A DNA stretch of 25,394 bases from the IMG/VR virus record IMGVR_UViG_2162886007_000031, positions 1-25,394 of that record. One strand, given 5' to 3'. Shown one piece after another: positions 17,182 through 22,365 of the stretch. The position numbers were made by a program, and so were the translations under genes. The notes beneath the pieces were generated by a model. The model saw nothing but the letters and a program-made list of their open reading frames with translations. It had not been told where the DNA came from and searched no databases. The stretch's first letter is position 1; every line of letters begins with the position of its first letter. This DNA comes from a virus.

Positions 17182-19563
17182 TTATGCCGCAAGCTTGAGC
17201 GCTGGCTCAAAGCTGGGATGATAATTGTCGATGAAGTTCTTGCGGATGGATGCCCGCCAGATGCGGACCCTATCCTTGAAGTTGTCGGGCATGTGGGTAT
17301 GCTCCATCATGTTGGCTCCCCACTCTGTATCGGTCGGTACGGGTACCGGGACTGTCCAGTTGAAGTAGTATTCCATGAAGGTACTTGCTTCTTCCATGGC
17401 AGCATGGAGCGCTGCGGCTGCCTCAAGGGCAACATCATTGGCAGCATCCACGTAGAGCGCGTCGTGTACCTGATTGACCAGCAGGGCGAGGCCCTTCCAG
17501 TTCTTCATCTTATAGTACACGCGGATGACCAGCCACATTGCAGCCTTGGCCCACTCACCGCCGCCACCCTGCACAGGGTAGTTCTTGATTTCCGTGGGGC
17601 TAAACGATGTGGGGCGGTTGCCTGCCTTCTTGGCGATCCACTCAGGGGCCGCACTCTCGCGCCATTTGTACAGCTTCCCGTCCGGTGTGCGGTACGTGCC
17701 CACTCGCGGGTTGCAGTCCAGCCCCGGTATCTGCGGATGCTGGAAGTGGATGCCCGTTGCCTTGCTGCCTGCCTTGATGTCCTCAGTCAGCTTGGCAAAG
17801 AACTTCTCAATCTCCGGGTACCGTGCGTTCTCAGCGACGATCAGGTCATTGATAACGTCAATGGCGATCCCGGTGTTCTCGTGGATGGTGTTGGCCCCGG
17901 CACCATAGGCGCGCTGGAAGCTGAACCCCTTGGCATCTGTTCGGCGGGCGTCCCATTCCGGCAGCTTCTCCGTTTTACAGAGGCGAACCGCCTCATCATA
18001 GCTGATGTTGAAGGTTTGGCCGACACGCACACAGTGCATGTCCAGACCGTCCTGCAAATCTCGGATAAGCTGCTGGCACTTGGTAAGGATAGCTTGGATG
18101 TAAACTTCCAAGCTCTTGAAGTCAGACTGGACGATCTTGCCGTCCTTGCCAAAGCGGCTGATGAACACGCTTTTGACAACAGACTTCCCCTCCTTCGGGA
18201 TGTTCTGGAGGTTGGGGTTACTGCTGCTGAACCGCGCCGTTACCGTGCTGGTGTGGTTGAGCATGTGGTGGATGATCCCGCTGGCCTGTACCAGCGTCAG
18301 CATCCCCTTAAACTCACCCGGCTTCTTCGGGTCCTCCACGATGTAGTAGGTGCCAAGGTCCTTGGTGAGGGCGGCTACCTTGCTGAGGCTCTTGAGGAAC
18401 GGGATGTCCCTGTTGCCTAGCGCCTCGATAACCTCCGCACTGGTGGACCATACCCCCTCAGTGGCCCCAGCCCATCGGGGGCTTGGTTCCGTGATGCGGG
18501 GGAAGGTATAGGGTACGTCTTGGATGGCCCCCTTGGGCTTATCAAGGTTGGGTACCTTCACCTTCTTGGTCTTGAACTCCCCGTCGTTCTTGCCGCTCTT
18601 GTAAACGAATATGCGACCGAAATACGCCTCAAGGTCAGCCTTCGCCACCTCCACGCTCACCGTGCTACCATCCACAAGGACGTAATGTTCTTCGTCCTTC
18701 ATGGCGTACTGCATCTGCCCATCTTCGGTCAGGTGCGGTAGCCACTTCTTATACTTGACGGTGCCGCCGAAGATGATGGCGGACTTCTGCGTCCCGCTGT
18801 TCCAGTTAAAATCAAACGGGAGGTCAGCGGGCAGATGCTGGGCAAGCTCGACGCTAAGCTCAGCGATCTTCGTGGCAAGCTCATCGGCCTGCTTACGGCC
18901 AAGCTCCACGTCAATCGCCATGCCGTTGCGTTCCATTTCGATGGTGCAGAGCAAGCTGCCCATGTTCATCTGGATGGAGCGCATCTGGCCGCAGGCTTCC
19001 GCCCGATCCCGTTGGGCGAGGTAGATCAATTCGGTGTTGCCGATGTCCCCGTGCTCATCGTCGGTACCGCAGAGGTAACGCCGCAGTAGGCCGGGGTCGA
19101 TGTCGGCGGTGCAGACGCCTTCCTGCCACAGGGCCTTCACCTCATCGAACTTGAGGTTGCCGCCGTAGCGCGGGGCCATTTCGTCCATGCTCAGCATCTG
19201 GTTGGCTTGGTCCATGCCTTCCAGCAGATACTCAGCAAGCTGGATGTCCCAGACCGTGCCGCCGTTGGCGACAAAGGCCATCCATGCCTCTAGGTTGTGA
19301 GGCTCCCGCAGGGCGTAAAGGATGTCGAACTTGATGTTCGCGCCGACGAGTACAGAGGTATCCTCCAGTAGTTTTGTGAACCAATCACCGGGTAGCCCGG
19401 AGCCGTCACCAGCACCCCTTCGTCCGAAGTAGTCTCCGACAACGGGACCCCCTTCGCGGCGATAGCCCGACATGACGACGAAGTTGGCAGGGTCAAAGGG
19501 GTTAGCCTTTCGTTTGAAGCTGGTGCGGATGGTGGTTTCAATGTCCCATACGGTATAGGTCAT
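17182..19563 (-). CDS. DNA polymerase, family A with 3'-5' exonuclease
   Basis: This 793-residue protein (T7 gp5: 704) copies the genome. The exonuclease domain starts with VWDIET (Asp 7, Glu 9) and GANIKFDILYAL (Asp 80). The polymerase domain has TARFSSSNPNLQNIP, motif A QSDFKSLEVY (Asp 481), motif B RRTDAKGFSFQRAYG (Lys 545, Tyr 553) and motif C NQVHDALYVD (Asp 701). Motif A reads DFKSLEVY where T7 has DASGLELR, and motif C is HDA instead of HDE, so this is a divergent branch. Both catalytic aspartates are kept. The start overlaps the previous stop as ATGA (19563-19560). Confidence 0.96.
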   Translation of the reverse strand: MTYTVWDIETTIRTSFKRKANPFDPANFVVMSGYRREGGPVVGDYFGRRGAGDGSGLPGDWFTKLLEDTSVLVGANIKFDILYALREPHNLEAWMAFVANGGTVWDIQLAEYLLEGMDQANQMLSMDEMAPRYGGNLKFDEVKALWQEGVCTADIDPGLLRRYLCGTDDEHGDIGNTELIYLAQRDRAEACGQMRSIQMNMGSLLCTIEMERNGMAIDVELGRKQADELATKIAELSVELAQHLPADLPFDFNWNSGTQKSAIIFGGTVKYKKWLPHLTEDGQMQYAMKDEEHYVLVDGSTVSVEVAKADLEAYFGRIFVYKSGKNDGEFKTKKVKVPNLDKPKGAIQDVPYTFPRITEPSPRWAGATEGVWSTSAEVIEALGNRDIPFLKSLSKVAALTKDLGTYYIVEDPKKPGEFKGMLTLVQASGIIHHMLNHTSTVTARFSSSNPNLQNIPKEGKSVVKSVFISRFGKDGKIVQSDFKSLEVYIQAILTKCQQLIRDLQDGLDMHCVRVGQTFNISYDEAVRLCKTEKLPEWDARRTDAKGFSFQRAYGAGANTIHENTGIAIDVINDLIVAENARYPEIEKFFAKLTEDIKAGSKATGIHFQHPQIPGLDCNPRVGTYRTPDGKLYKWRESAAPEWIAKKAGNRPTSFSPTEIKNYPVQGGGGEWAKAAMWLVIRVYYKMKNWKGLALLVNQVHDALYVDAANDVALEAAAALHAAMEEASTFMEYYFNWTVPVPVPTDTEWGANMMEHTHMPDNFKDRVRIWRASIRKNFIDNYHPSFEPALKLAA

Positions 19564-19802: not shown

Positions 19803-20050
19803 AGACCTTGTACCTTCTTGCCGGACACCGTACAGTTGATGGTGCCAAACACCCGCAGGCGCCCTTTCTTGATAAGCTCGTTGACGCGGCCTGCCACCGA
19901 TGCGGTTGGCAGGTTGAGGTGCGCGGCGATCTCAGCGCGGGTGCGGGTTAAGTCCTGTTTGAACACCGACATCACCCGTTCGTGCATGGTCGGCAGCTTG
20001 TCTTTAATGTCTGCATAAGCCTCGCGGCTCGTGCTGGTAACGTTGGTGAT
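19790..20050 (-). CDS. Winged helix-turn-helix DNA-binding protein; probable ATC start
   Basis: The core is a winged helix: TRAEIAAHLNLPTASVAGRV, NELIKKGRL, then a short wing (FGTINCTVSGKKVQ). The first conventional in-frame start, ATG 19987 (65 residues), truncates the N-terminus. The frame upstream reads TNVTSTSREAYADIKDKLPT, which I know as the usual lead-in of such phage proteins. It opens at ATC (20050-20048), which shares its A with the helicase stop as TAATC, has AGGAG exactly 7 nt upstream and gives 86 residues. Five other junctions in the window are TAATG. It may regulate phage or host transcription; its targets are unknown. Confidence 0.82.
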   Translation of the reverse strand: MTNVTSTSREAYADIKDKLPTMHERVMSVFKQDLTRTRAEIAAHLNLPTASVAGRVNELIKKGRLRVFGTINCTVSGKKVQGLCRR

Positions 20051-21345
20051 TACACTGCTCCTGTAAGCTCGTTGGGCGAATTGTACCGCCCGCGATTGCC
20101 GTCGAAGTTCGTCTCTGCCCGTAGCTGTTTGTTGCCGCCTACGCGGGCCAGCTTGTTCTTGGTCAGGCCAAGGTAACGGGTGAGGGGGAAGTCCTGATTA
20201 TACCCGATGGTGAGGATGAAGTCCGCAGCACCTTGCTTGCCGGTCTTGCTGTCCTTCAACATTCCGAGGGTAGGGTAGGCAAGGTTCTCTCCATCGGCGC
20301 TGATCTGGCTAGTAGCAAGGACAACACAATCATGCTTGACAGCGATGATCCGTGCCCACTGGTACATTGCTTCGAGAAGCTGATCGGTTCGGGTTCCGTT
20401 GTTGTTGGTGCCGCCGCCGAACTTGATGTTGTCCACCATGTCAAAGACGATGATGGCGGGCGGGGTGGTGCGGATGATGTCTTCGACTTCGTGGTTCCAA
20501 AAGTCATGAACATCGAACACCCGTATAATATCAGGTCGTCCACCAGTAACTGCGATGTAATCCTGCCCGATAGTTCCGGCTTGGGATCGCTGCACAAGGT
20601 CTTGCATCGTGGCATTGAGGGCTGACTGGTAGAGCCTCGATACAATTCGCTTACCGGGACCCTCGTTATTAAACCAGAGTATGGTTCTCTGCTGGCCGGG
20701 GAATAGCTCCTCAACCTGAGCGGCAAAGAAGGTAAGCTGATCCGTGACAAACGTTGTTTTACCTGTGTCAGGTCGGCCAGCAAGGATGCCAAAGTCTCCG
20801 GGTCGAAGAGGTCTGAGGCTGGCGTTAATTTCTGACAGTCTCCAGTGGAACCCTCTGTCATCCGCATCGTCCTGCAAAAGATCGTTGATGTCGTCCTGCA
20901 CCCAAGGTGTCTTAACCTTGCGGTCGCAGTCCATTTCAAACCGCTCAACAATGTCCCGCATTGCGGAGCCAAGGTCTATCTCCTCACCCTCGTTGAACTT
21001 CTCAACTATGGTGACGAGCTTGGAAGCGGTATCGGCAGCGACAAGGCGGGCCATAAGCCCACTCTCTAGCTCCTCAGGGACAGGCTCCTGCACCTTGGCG
21101 AGGAACGTCTTGTAAAAGGCGCGTTGCTCATCGTTGAGCTTTGGATGGGCGAAGCTGCGGAACCAGAGCCAGAAAGGCTCCTCCTCAATCGAGACGACAT
21201 CGGGAAACTCCCGAAAGAACTTGCCGAAGTCATCAAGGATAATCGCGGACTTCTCATCCAACACATGCTTGGGTACTGATCGTATTAGCTTGTCGTACTT
21301 CTCCTTGGTACGGAGAAGCCGCAGCAACGTAAGGTCAAGACTTAT
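20050..21345 (-). CDS. Replicative DNA helicase (DnaB/T7 gp4 helicase type); probable ATA start
   Basis: This 431-residue RecA-type helicase has Walker A GRPDTGKTT (about residues 190-198), Walker B IIVFDMVDN (Asp 302), then VLATSQIS and a C-terminal LTKNKLARVG arginine region. The first conventional start is TTG at 21327, with no ribosome-binding sequence at a useful distance. ATA at 21345 has AAGGAG exactly 7 nt upstream and adds six residues that continue the N-terminal helix (SLDLTLLRLLRTKEKYDKLI). It overlaps the 83-residue gene by 11 bases. Primase and helicase are separate genes, unlike the fused T7 gp4. It unwinds DNA ahead of the polymerase. Confidence 0.95.
   Translation of the reverse strand: MSLDLTLLRLLRTKEKYDKLIRSVPKHVLDEKSAIILDDFGKFFREFPDVVSIEEEPFWLWFRSFAHPKLNDEQRAFYKTFLAKVQEPVPEELESGLMARLVAADTASKLVTIVEKFNEGEEIDLGSAMRDIVERFEMDCDRKVKTPWVQDDINDLLQDDADDRGFHWRLSEINASLRPLRPGDFGILAGRPDTGKTTFVTDQLTFFAAQVEELFPGQQRTILWFNNEGPGKRIVSRLYQSALNATMQDLVQRSQAGTIGQDYIAVTGGRPDIIRVFDVHDFWNHEVEDIIRTTPPAIIVFDMVDNIKFGGGTNNNGTRTDQLLEAMYQWARIIAVKHDCVVLATSQISADGENLAYPTLGMLKDSKTGKQGAADFILTIGYNQDFPLTRYLGLTKNKLARVGGNKQLRAETNFDGNRGRYNSPNELTGAV
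20058..20062 (-). promoter_or_regulatory. Ribosome-binding site of the winged-helix gene
   Basis: AGGAG lies at the end of the helicase gene, 7 nt before the in-frame ATC at 20050-20048 and 70 nt before the first conventional in-frame start at 19987. It decides the choice of the ATC start. Confidence 0.65.
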
Positions 21346-21586
21346 CGGTTTGCTCCTTAATGGTTACGTCGCCACCCTGCTGTGGGTAGTCCTTACGGAA
21401 CTCCTCCATAAGACGTGGGGATGCAGGGCGACCGGCGGGCTTGAGTTTAAGGTACTCTGGATAGGGTATGTCAAGAACTTGCAAGACACGCCTAGCCCCT
21501 GCGACAATTCGACGGTCTGAGTTAGACAGGTAATCTACTACCGCAGGATGATACAGACGGTCTAAATCTACGTTCATGTCAGCCAC
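21335..21586 (-). CDS. Protein of 83 residues between primase and helicase, unknown
   Basis: The start is GTG at 21586, with GAGGAG 8 nt upstream, overlapping the primase by 13 bases; an ATG at 21577 in the same frame is the alternative (80 residues) but is 17 nt from that site. The protein is soluble and mostly helical: DLDRLYHPAVVDYLSNSDRR, IVAGARRVLQVLDIPYPEY, then a Pro-rich basic part (LKPAGRPASPRLMEEF). It probably interacts with the primase or helicase, since it is encoded exactly between them, but there is no motif to show this. Confidence 0.8.
   Translation of the reverse strand: MADMNVDLDRLYHPAVVDYLSNSDRRIVAGARRVLQVLDIPYPEYLKLKPAGRPASPRLMEEFRKDYPQQGGDVTIKEQTDKS
21353..21358 (-). 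promoter_or_regulatory. Ribosome-binding site of the helicase gene
   Basis: AAGGAG lies 7 nt before an in-frame ATA at 21345-21343 and 25 nt before the TTG at 21327, too far to serve the TTG. No ATG, GTG or TTG in any frame lies within 5-10 nt of it. It decides the choice of the ATA start. Confidence 0.7.
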
Positions 21587-22365
21587 TTGATTATCTCCTC
21601 TTTGCTGTAGAGCTTGGGGTCCTTGGCCGTCTTGATGCTAACAGCGTCCACGCCGTAGCTTCGCAACTTGGGGACAATCTTGCGACGCCCCTTGAGGCCC
21701 GCGCCATCAGGGTCCAGCCACACCCTTACGGGCAAGCCGGTACCGATGATGTCATTGATCTTGTCGTCGTCCAGCAGGCTGGTACCAAGGATGGACCACG
21801 CTGCTGTCACCTCAGCGACACGGGCGGCGCTTAGCATATCCTCAGTGAGGACGAGCACCGGGCCGCTACCCTGCTTGTACAGGGGCTTGTCGATGGGCGG
21901 GTTGATATACTTGGGCCGGTCCTTGTCGAACCCACGCGCCTGCCAATAGAGCAAACGCTGGCCGTCGAGTACCGGCATCACGACGCGGGACATCCTAGGG
22001 TTCCAGTAGAAGCCCAGTTGGATGATCCGCTGGTTGGACAGCCCTGCCTTGTACAGCCACACACGGGCGGGCAGGGGCCAAGATGATGGGTCGAACTCCG
22101 CAGGCATCGGGGGCCGCACGTCGAGCGCAGCGGCCTCATCCGCCTGTATCACCTTGCTGAGCCTAGCTAGGCGCTCAGCGAGACTAGGGGAGGGCTTTGG
22201 TACCCACCCGTCATCGGAGCATCTGTGACACCATGCGGTCCAGCACGTCTCTTTGTGATCGACAATGAGAGGGGTGCCGGAACCGCAATCATGGGGAACA
22301 CGCGCCCTGCCACCTAGCTGGAGGGCTTGTGCCGCCTCCAACCAAGAGGCAGGGTCTAAGGTCAT
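21574..22365 (-). CDS. DNA primase (zinc-binding and TOPRIM domains)
   Basis: This 263-residue protein is a stand-alone primase that makes RNA primers for lagging-strand synthesis. The N-terminus has a zinc site, Cys 27, Cys 41, Cys 46 and Cys 49 in PHDCGSG and CWTAWCHRC. The catalytic core has WQARGF, the TOPRIM glutamate in LVLTEDML (Glu 175) and WLDPDGAG (Asp 218, Asp 220). It corresponds to the N-terminal half of T7 gp4. The start overlaps the previous stop as ATGA (22365-22362). Confidence 0.93.
   Translation of the reverse strand: MTLDPASWLEAAQALQLGGRARVPHDCGSGTPLIVDHKETCWTAWCHRCSDDGWVPKPSPSLAERLARLSKVIQADEAAALDVRPPMPAEFDPSSWPLPARVWLYKAGLSNQRIIQLGFYWNPRMSRVVMPVLDGQRLLYWQARGFDKDRPKYINPPIDKPLYKQGSGPVLVLTEDMLSAARVAEVTAAWSILGTSLLDDDKINDIIGTGLPVRVWLDPDGAGLKGRRKIVPKLRSYGVDAVSIKTAKDPKLYSKEEIIKWLT

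Follow-up and report, generated by a model that had tools for sequence, protein, structure and literature searches.

We analysed a virus record of 25,394 bases, a single metagenomic contig, which we refer to throughout as the window. Its minus strand carries a DnaB-like replicative helicase gene together with a small ORF, a DNA primase gene and a DNA polymerase A gene (Table 1). The helicase matches PHROG 19 (E 2e-65) and the Pfam families AAA_25 and DnaB_C, the latter above cutoff, and its fold matches DnaB over the full length, N-terminal domain included (Foldseek, E 3e-18). An AlphaFold model of the protein has a mean pLDDT of 88.8, with 84 for residues 1-10. Elsewhere on the same strand, at 23212-23182, a strong terminator-like hairpin of 13 pairs is followed by a T-rich tail.

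Table 1. Genes and start-region features of the window
Feature	Position	Strand	Remarks
Helicase gene, DnaB-like replicative	20050..21345	-	431 aa counted from ATA
ATA, proposed helicase start codon	21343..21345	-	104 relatives have their start codon at the homologous position
Shine-Dalgarno AAGGAG (in TTAAGGAG)	21353..21358	-	Direct reading
TTG, first conventional in-frame codon, residue 7, disfavoured as a start	21325..21327	-	
TAA stop upstream of the helicase frame, 18 nt from ATA	21364..21366	-	
Small ORF, ORFan	21335..21586	-	83 aa from GTG 21586 or 80 aa from ATG 21577
DNA primase, ordinary ATG start	21574..22365	-	PHROG 47, E 2e-39
DNA polymerase A, ordinary ATG start, strong Shine-Dalgarno	17182..19563	-	Pfam DNA_pol_A

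The start region of the helicase gene

The helicase frame is open on the minus strand from 21363 to 20050, after the TAA at 21366-21364. Between that stop and the ATA stand the codons CCA TTA AGG AGC AAA CCG and nothing else, and the frame contains no ATG, GTG or TTG from TAA 21366 until TTG 21327 at residue 7. Direct reading of the minus strand gives a 7-nt spacer (CAAACCG, 21352-21346) between AAGGAG and the ATA, which is followed by AGT CTT GAC CTT ACG and then by the TTG (21327-21325). The Shine-Dalgarno (SD) pairing with the 16S tail available to the ATA was calculated at -7.0 kcal/mol with an aligned spacing of 7; for TTG 21327, which lies 25 nt downstream of AAGGAG, no SD-like pairing was found at spacings of 4-11 (energy 0). 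An initial annotation of this DNA had proposed that the helicase starts at the ATA. Its positions for the SD, the ATA and the TTG were confirmed to the base by direct reading, and its statement that the frame lacks a properly spaced ATG, GTG or TTG also held, TTG 21327 having no usable ribosome-binding site. The same is true of its remark that the residues added by the ATA start continue the N-terminal helix: in the AlphaFold model the first helix comprises residues 3-10 numbered from ATA, and a start at the TTG would cut away half of it.

The small ORF overlaps its neighbours at both ends. ATG 21577 shares an ATGA with the primase stop, and the TGA at 21337-21335, 8 nt past the first base of the ATA, overlaps the helicase start. 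We found no match to the 83-aa ORF in Pfam, PHROG, the collected loci or phage records. The primase stop and the helicase start are separated by anything from -125 to +1733 nt, depending on the locus, so that the region between them is a hypervariable insertion slot. In loci L114-L128, whose helicases are 86-100% identical to that of L114, the flanks (about 1-1979 of each locus) are unrelated, and the switch to near-identical helicase sequence comes precisely at the start codon. The helicase start lies inside the primase frame in a clade with GTT at this position and in Caulobacter phages; at L114, L127 and L153 there is no overlapping primase frame that would constrain the start codon.

Start codons of related helicases and control genes

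Helicases were gathered from IMG/VR, one bacterial genome contig and annotated phage records, the set being collected via the window's own family. The start codon was located as the codon before the motif S-(L/I)-(D/E)-x-T-x-L-R-L-L, with a few divergent sequences set by hand, and removal of near-duplicates left 105 distinct helicases, the window included. The relatives are phiKMV-like Autographiviridae of Caulobacter, Sphingomonas, Brevundimonas, Burkholderia and others; a scan of bacterial genome contigs yielded just one (Pararobbsia). A canonical codon occupies the start position in 85 of the 105 (ATG 51, TTG 20, GTG 14), and a non-canonical one in the window and 19 relatives (ATA 7, ATC 7, GTT 3, ATT 2, CTG 1). 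Every non-canonical codon has T as its middle base, and those other than CTG are ATG or GTG with an altered third base, the class that is discriminated against by IF3 (PMC5472188). Isolates with ATA are the Caulobacter phages Percy, KSC, BL198, ERS and DCM, and those with ATC are Lullwater, Quill_5.2 and Vibrio phage 1.204.O. Among more distant isolates (LUZ19-like, KpV41, Acinetobacter B5, Vibrio KF2, phi-2 and others) only ATG, GTG or TTG was seen.

On a maximum-likelihood tree of the 105 proteins, obtained with a quick method, the canonical or non-canonical state changes at least 12 times. Sister pairs with different start codons are L114 (ATA) and L115 (TTG), L127 (ATA) and L119 (TTG), L027 (ATC) and L026 (GTG), L017 (ATC) and L019 (GTG), L011 (ATT) and L057 (TTG), and L153 (ATT) and L155 (GTG); Vibrio phage 1.204.O has ATC and its relative 526E57-1 has ATG. 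Such sisters can have nearly identical helicases. Counter to this trend, every sampled Percy-like phage keeps ATA, down to about 71% helicase identity. The alignment at the ATA codon that the initial annotation had proposed thus supports initiation there. It had asked whether close relatives have ATG at this codon; they do not simply do so, the nearest having GTT, ATT, ATC, TTG or GTG. Its view of an AUA start as a great rarity was only partly borne out; non-canonical helicase starts recur in several other lineages.

These data also bear on the possibility of a sequencing or assembly error, with ATG as the true codon. The window is one metagenomic contig, and its own ATA rests on that contig alone. 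Against an error, other assemblies and several isolates from different sequencing groups independently carry codons of this kind; errors would not repeatedly pick NTN codons preceded at 7-8 nt by an SD; and an error predicts ATG in close relatives, the nearest of which have instead the codons just listed. We regard this explanation as all but excluded.

The primase and polymerase genes of the same loci provide a control. A conventional start was found in 89 of 89 evaluable primases and in 81 of 82 evaluable polymerases; one more primase and four polymerases were flagged automatically, and these were counted as conventional, since an ATG or GTG lies a little inward of where the start was expected. 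Non-canonical starts therefore number 20/105 in the helicase against 1/171 in the controls (p 2e-8 by rows), and p is 7e-5 when the non-canonical lineages are collapsed roughly to 11, which allows only roughly for relatedness. By-row p-values are optimistic because the rows are related and the helicases were found through the window's own family. The polymerase of Lullwater (L321, around 2841) has an apparent CTG start; Quill_5.2 has ATG, and the deposited start is later. We rejected a genome-wide habit of odd starts, as the window's other large ORFs all have conventional candidates, and likewise such a habit in the relatives' genomes, where primase and polA are ordinary save for the CTG of Lullwater. 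As for a phage tRNA that would read AUA as initiator, no tRNA gene is present in the 25 kb window, which is not the whole genome.

The SDs also differ. Mean SD energy is -7.6 kcal/mol at non-canonical starts against -6.3 kcal/mol in AUG relatives (p 4e-4 by rows, 0.014 with 12 lineages), and an aligned spacing of 7 or 8 is seen in 10 of 12 non-canonical lineages but in only 6 of the 51 AUG relatives (p 3e-6). Some strong SDs, in the GTT clade and the Caulobacter phages, sit in primase codons for K-K/E-E-I, so that part of the SD strength is perhaps inherited from primase coding. Weaker mRNA structure was rejected as a compensation for the odd start: folding around the start did not distinguish non-canonical cases from the others (mean MFE -9.9 vs -10.3 kcal/mol, p 0.51).

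Evidence for translation from the start position

Conservation at the protein level sets in at the start position itself. Residue +1 is Ser in all 15 non-canonical sequences compared, encoded by six codons from both Ser boxes, and +5 Thr and +7 Leu are equally invariant (15/15 each). In the same sequences, residue -1 takes nine different identities plus a stop; upstream of the start position the relatives show no conservation, and stops are present there. In the window's clade pN/pS rises from 0.25 over codons 1-19 to 0.90 over the ten codons that precede them; in the Percy group the corresponding values are 0.09 and 1.08. Between the ATA and the TTG, L008, the nearest relative (79% identical), differs from the window in five of five codons and in none of five residues (AGT CTT GAC CTT ACG in the window, TCT CTC GAT TTG ACC in L008), and the stretch before TTG 21327 is therefore translated.

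Six other loci lack any in-frame ATG, GTG or TTG between the upstream stop and at least codon +23, namely L011 (ATT), L017, L027 and L078 (ATC), and L114 and L127 (ATA), the stretch reaching +49 in L011, +69 in L027 and +58 in both L114 and L127. In L066 (ATC) and L153 (ATT) the next downstream conventional codons are at +18 and +27, respectively, and an in-frame GTG, TTG or ATG is present 57-84 nt upstream of the start position. The GTT, CTG and Caulobacter-phage cases give less strict support because a conventional codon lies shortly downstream. In the GTT clade (L008-L010) and in L052 (CTG) this is an ATG or TTG four codons downstream that overlaps or lies near the primase stop, as ATGA or TTGA overlapping it in the GTT clade, and in the Caulobacter phages it is a TTG as third codon, two codons after the start position. 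In the window itself a TTG stands only six codons after the ATA.

This TTG is the basis of the first rival reading, in which the helicase starts at 21327, perhaps by reinitiation after TGA 21335 of the small ORF. TTG is common in the helicase family (20/105), and here it stands 7 nt past the small ORF's stop. A start just after an upstream stop can permit coupled reinitiation; re-initiation is reviewed in PMC12548453. Against this reading, the TTG has no SD at a usable spacing; Ser-Leu-Asp-x-Thr would be left untranslated, although these residues match those of L008 despite a change in every one of the five codons; the first helix would lose half its length; and L011, L027, L114 and L127 pair SD and codon in the same way but have no such start downstream. 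We rejected the TTG start because the five preceding codons are under purifying selection and it has no SD, and consider it very unlikely.

In a second rival reading, a programmed +1 frameshift at TCT TGA (21340-21335) fuses the small ORF to the helicase. The 83-aa ORF does overlap the helicase frame, and prfB- and antizyme-like +1 shifts are known to occur at stops of this kind. However, the upstream ORF is unconserved and unique to the window, and flanks differ wholly among near-identical helicases. L114 has no conserved upstream ORF, and L127 has none to shift from: no ORF with a conventional start crosses the site in either of the other two frames, which excludes a frameshift from an upstream gene at that locus. 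A frameshift would moreover leave the well-placed SD without purpose, and in the majority of relatives the homologous codon is an ordinary start. A conserved upstream ORF in the shifted frame, which would be expected of such a fusion, is thus lacking, and we rejected this explanation as virtually ruled out.

We conclude that the helicase is very likely translated from AUA 21345, with the reservation that all the evidence is comparative and that there are no N-terminus, ribosome footprint or reporter data. Start position, SD, conservation and recurrence are shown by the sequences themselves, and the window's AUA belongs to a state that recurs within this helicase family.

Proposed mechanism and its significance

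In our proposal, the strong and correctly spaced AAGGAG would position the AUA at the P site of the ribosome, to be read there by fMet-tRNA with a third-position mismatch, and the helicase would begin Met-Ser-Leu-Asp-Leu-Thr. Fewer helicase molecules per transcript than from AUG, and a yield sensitive to IF3, are the likely consequences, inferred without expression or IF3 data. Across the family the start position drifts among AUG, GUG, UUG, AUA, AUC, AUU and probably GUU, with the SD putatively compensating. By inference, new start codons probably arrive by turnover of the small genes just upstream, with junctions sometimes at the start codon; a new cassette can bring both a new SD and a new start, because the unrelated flanks of L114-L128 join the helicases right at that codon.

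Weak AUN starts have precedents, most of them cellular. The infC gene, encoding IF3, starts at AUU in E. coli, AUC in Streptomyces and AUA in S. aureus (PMC5472188, PMC13009471). Like the helicase it combines an AUN codon bearing a third-base mismatch with a strong SD, in one specific gene whose codon varies by lineage, but its product is the very factor by which the codon is read, so that the gene autoregulates. The phage helicase is not that factor, and any control would therefore run via host IF3. The sigR gene of Streptomyces starts at GTC and has been shown experimentally to be repressed by IF3 (PMC5472188). It shares with the helicase a non-canonical codon misannotated in databases and, by analogy only, a start that keeps the protein limiting; it differs in its codon, its cellular setting and its experimental demonstration. 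In S. aureus, infC, ccpN and citZ have AUA starts and cvfC1 an AUU start; AUA and AUU starts of this kind, with strong SDs, give about 10% of AUG expression in poor medium, and ccpN up to 30% in rich medium (PMC13009471). The starts of ccpN and cvfC1 resemble that of the helicase in their strong SD at conserved spacing, but these are cellular regulators with the extended SD pairing of S. aureus, and their codons are conserved rather than frequently switching. The expectation in the initial annotation that an AUA start would set low expression or need a special condition fits these published AUA and AUU starts, although this remains an inference without expression data. Among phages, T4 gene 26 has an internal AUU start; it is likewise a phage gene with an AUU initiation codon, but the start is internal, yields a shorter baseplate-gene product and is not a recurrent family state. 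T7 gene 4 has dual starts (4A/4B), both conventional, which make a primase-helicase and a helicase. There too the dosage of a phage replicative helicase is shaped at translation initiation, but in the window's phage primase and helicase are separate genes.

A remaining rival concerns why the ATA stands there and not whether it is used. It holds that the codon is a neutral by-product, cassette exchange or an overlapping primase end having left an imperfect start that is tolerated without benefit. The variable primase-helicase distance, the L114-L128 flanks that are unrelated right up to the start codon, and the starts within the primase frame of the GTT clade and Caulobacter phages all favour it. 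Against it, Percyvirus-like phages retain ATA to about 71% helicase identity, the non-canonical starts surpass those of AUG relatives in SD strength and in tightness of spacing, polymerase and primase of the same genomes lack the non-canonical pattern, and at L114, L127 and L153 the codon is free of overlapping primase constraint. We find this explanation as easy to accept as to dismiss. The recurrence of 'forbidden' codons suggests that weak translation of the helicase gene is possibly tolerated or even useful, but sequence cannot decide between a start that is selected and one merely tolerated, and we give mere tolerance an equal weighting. A bolder reading, which we consider unlikely, is that the helicase has been placed deliberately at a weak, IF3-discriminated start, such that its dosage and the onset of replication would track the initiation state of host ribosomes, the codon serving as an evolutionary dial reset by upstream cassette exchange; both IF3 control and dosage are inferred here.

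We found no report of a non-canonical start of a phage helicase in the literature searched, which is weak evidence, since most subscription journals lay outside it. Within the limits of that search, non-canonical starts as such are already known, and what is probably new is their recurrence in one phage replication gene with switching among sisters. Few genes with AUA, AUC or AUU starts are known, nearly all of them cellular, and gene finders leave such codons out. If the conserved codon is the start, the deposited helicase N-termini of several cultured phages are wrong, beginning too late with a lag of 98 codons for Percy, 28 for ERS, 9 each for KSC, BL198 and 1.204.O, and 2 each for DCM, Lullwater and Quill_5.2; the five Percy-like phages share one N-terminal sequence yet differ in annotated start. 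Separately, some deposited helicase starts fall after a conserved ATG or GTG that occupies the family's start position, by 28 codons in P-2FD (L327), 10 in Illi-1 (L328), 22 in VSW-3 (L332) and 25 in phi-2 (L334).

For the family as a whole, about a dozen switches beside sisters with ordinary codons amount to a natural experiment on start codon identity in an essential replication gene. The setting of helicase dosage at translation initiation, and the effect of host IF3 on phage replication, thereby become directly testable.
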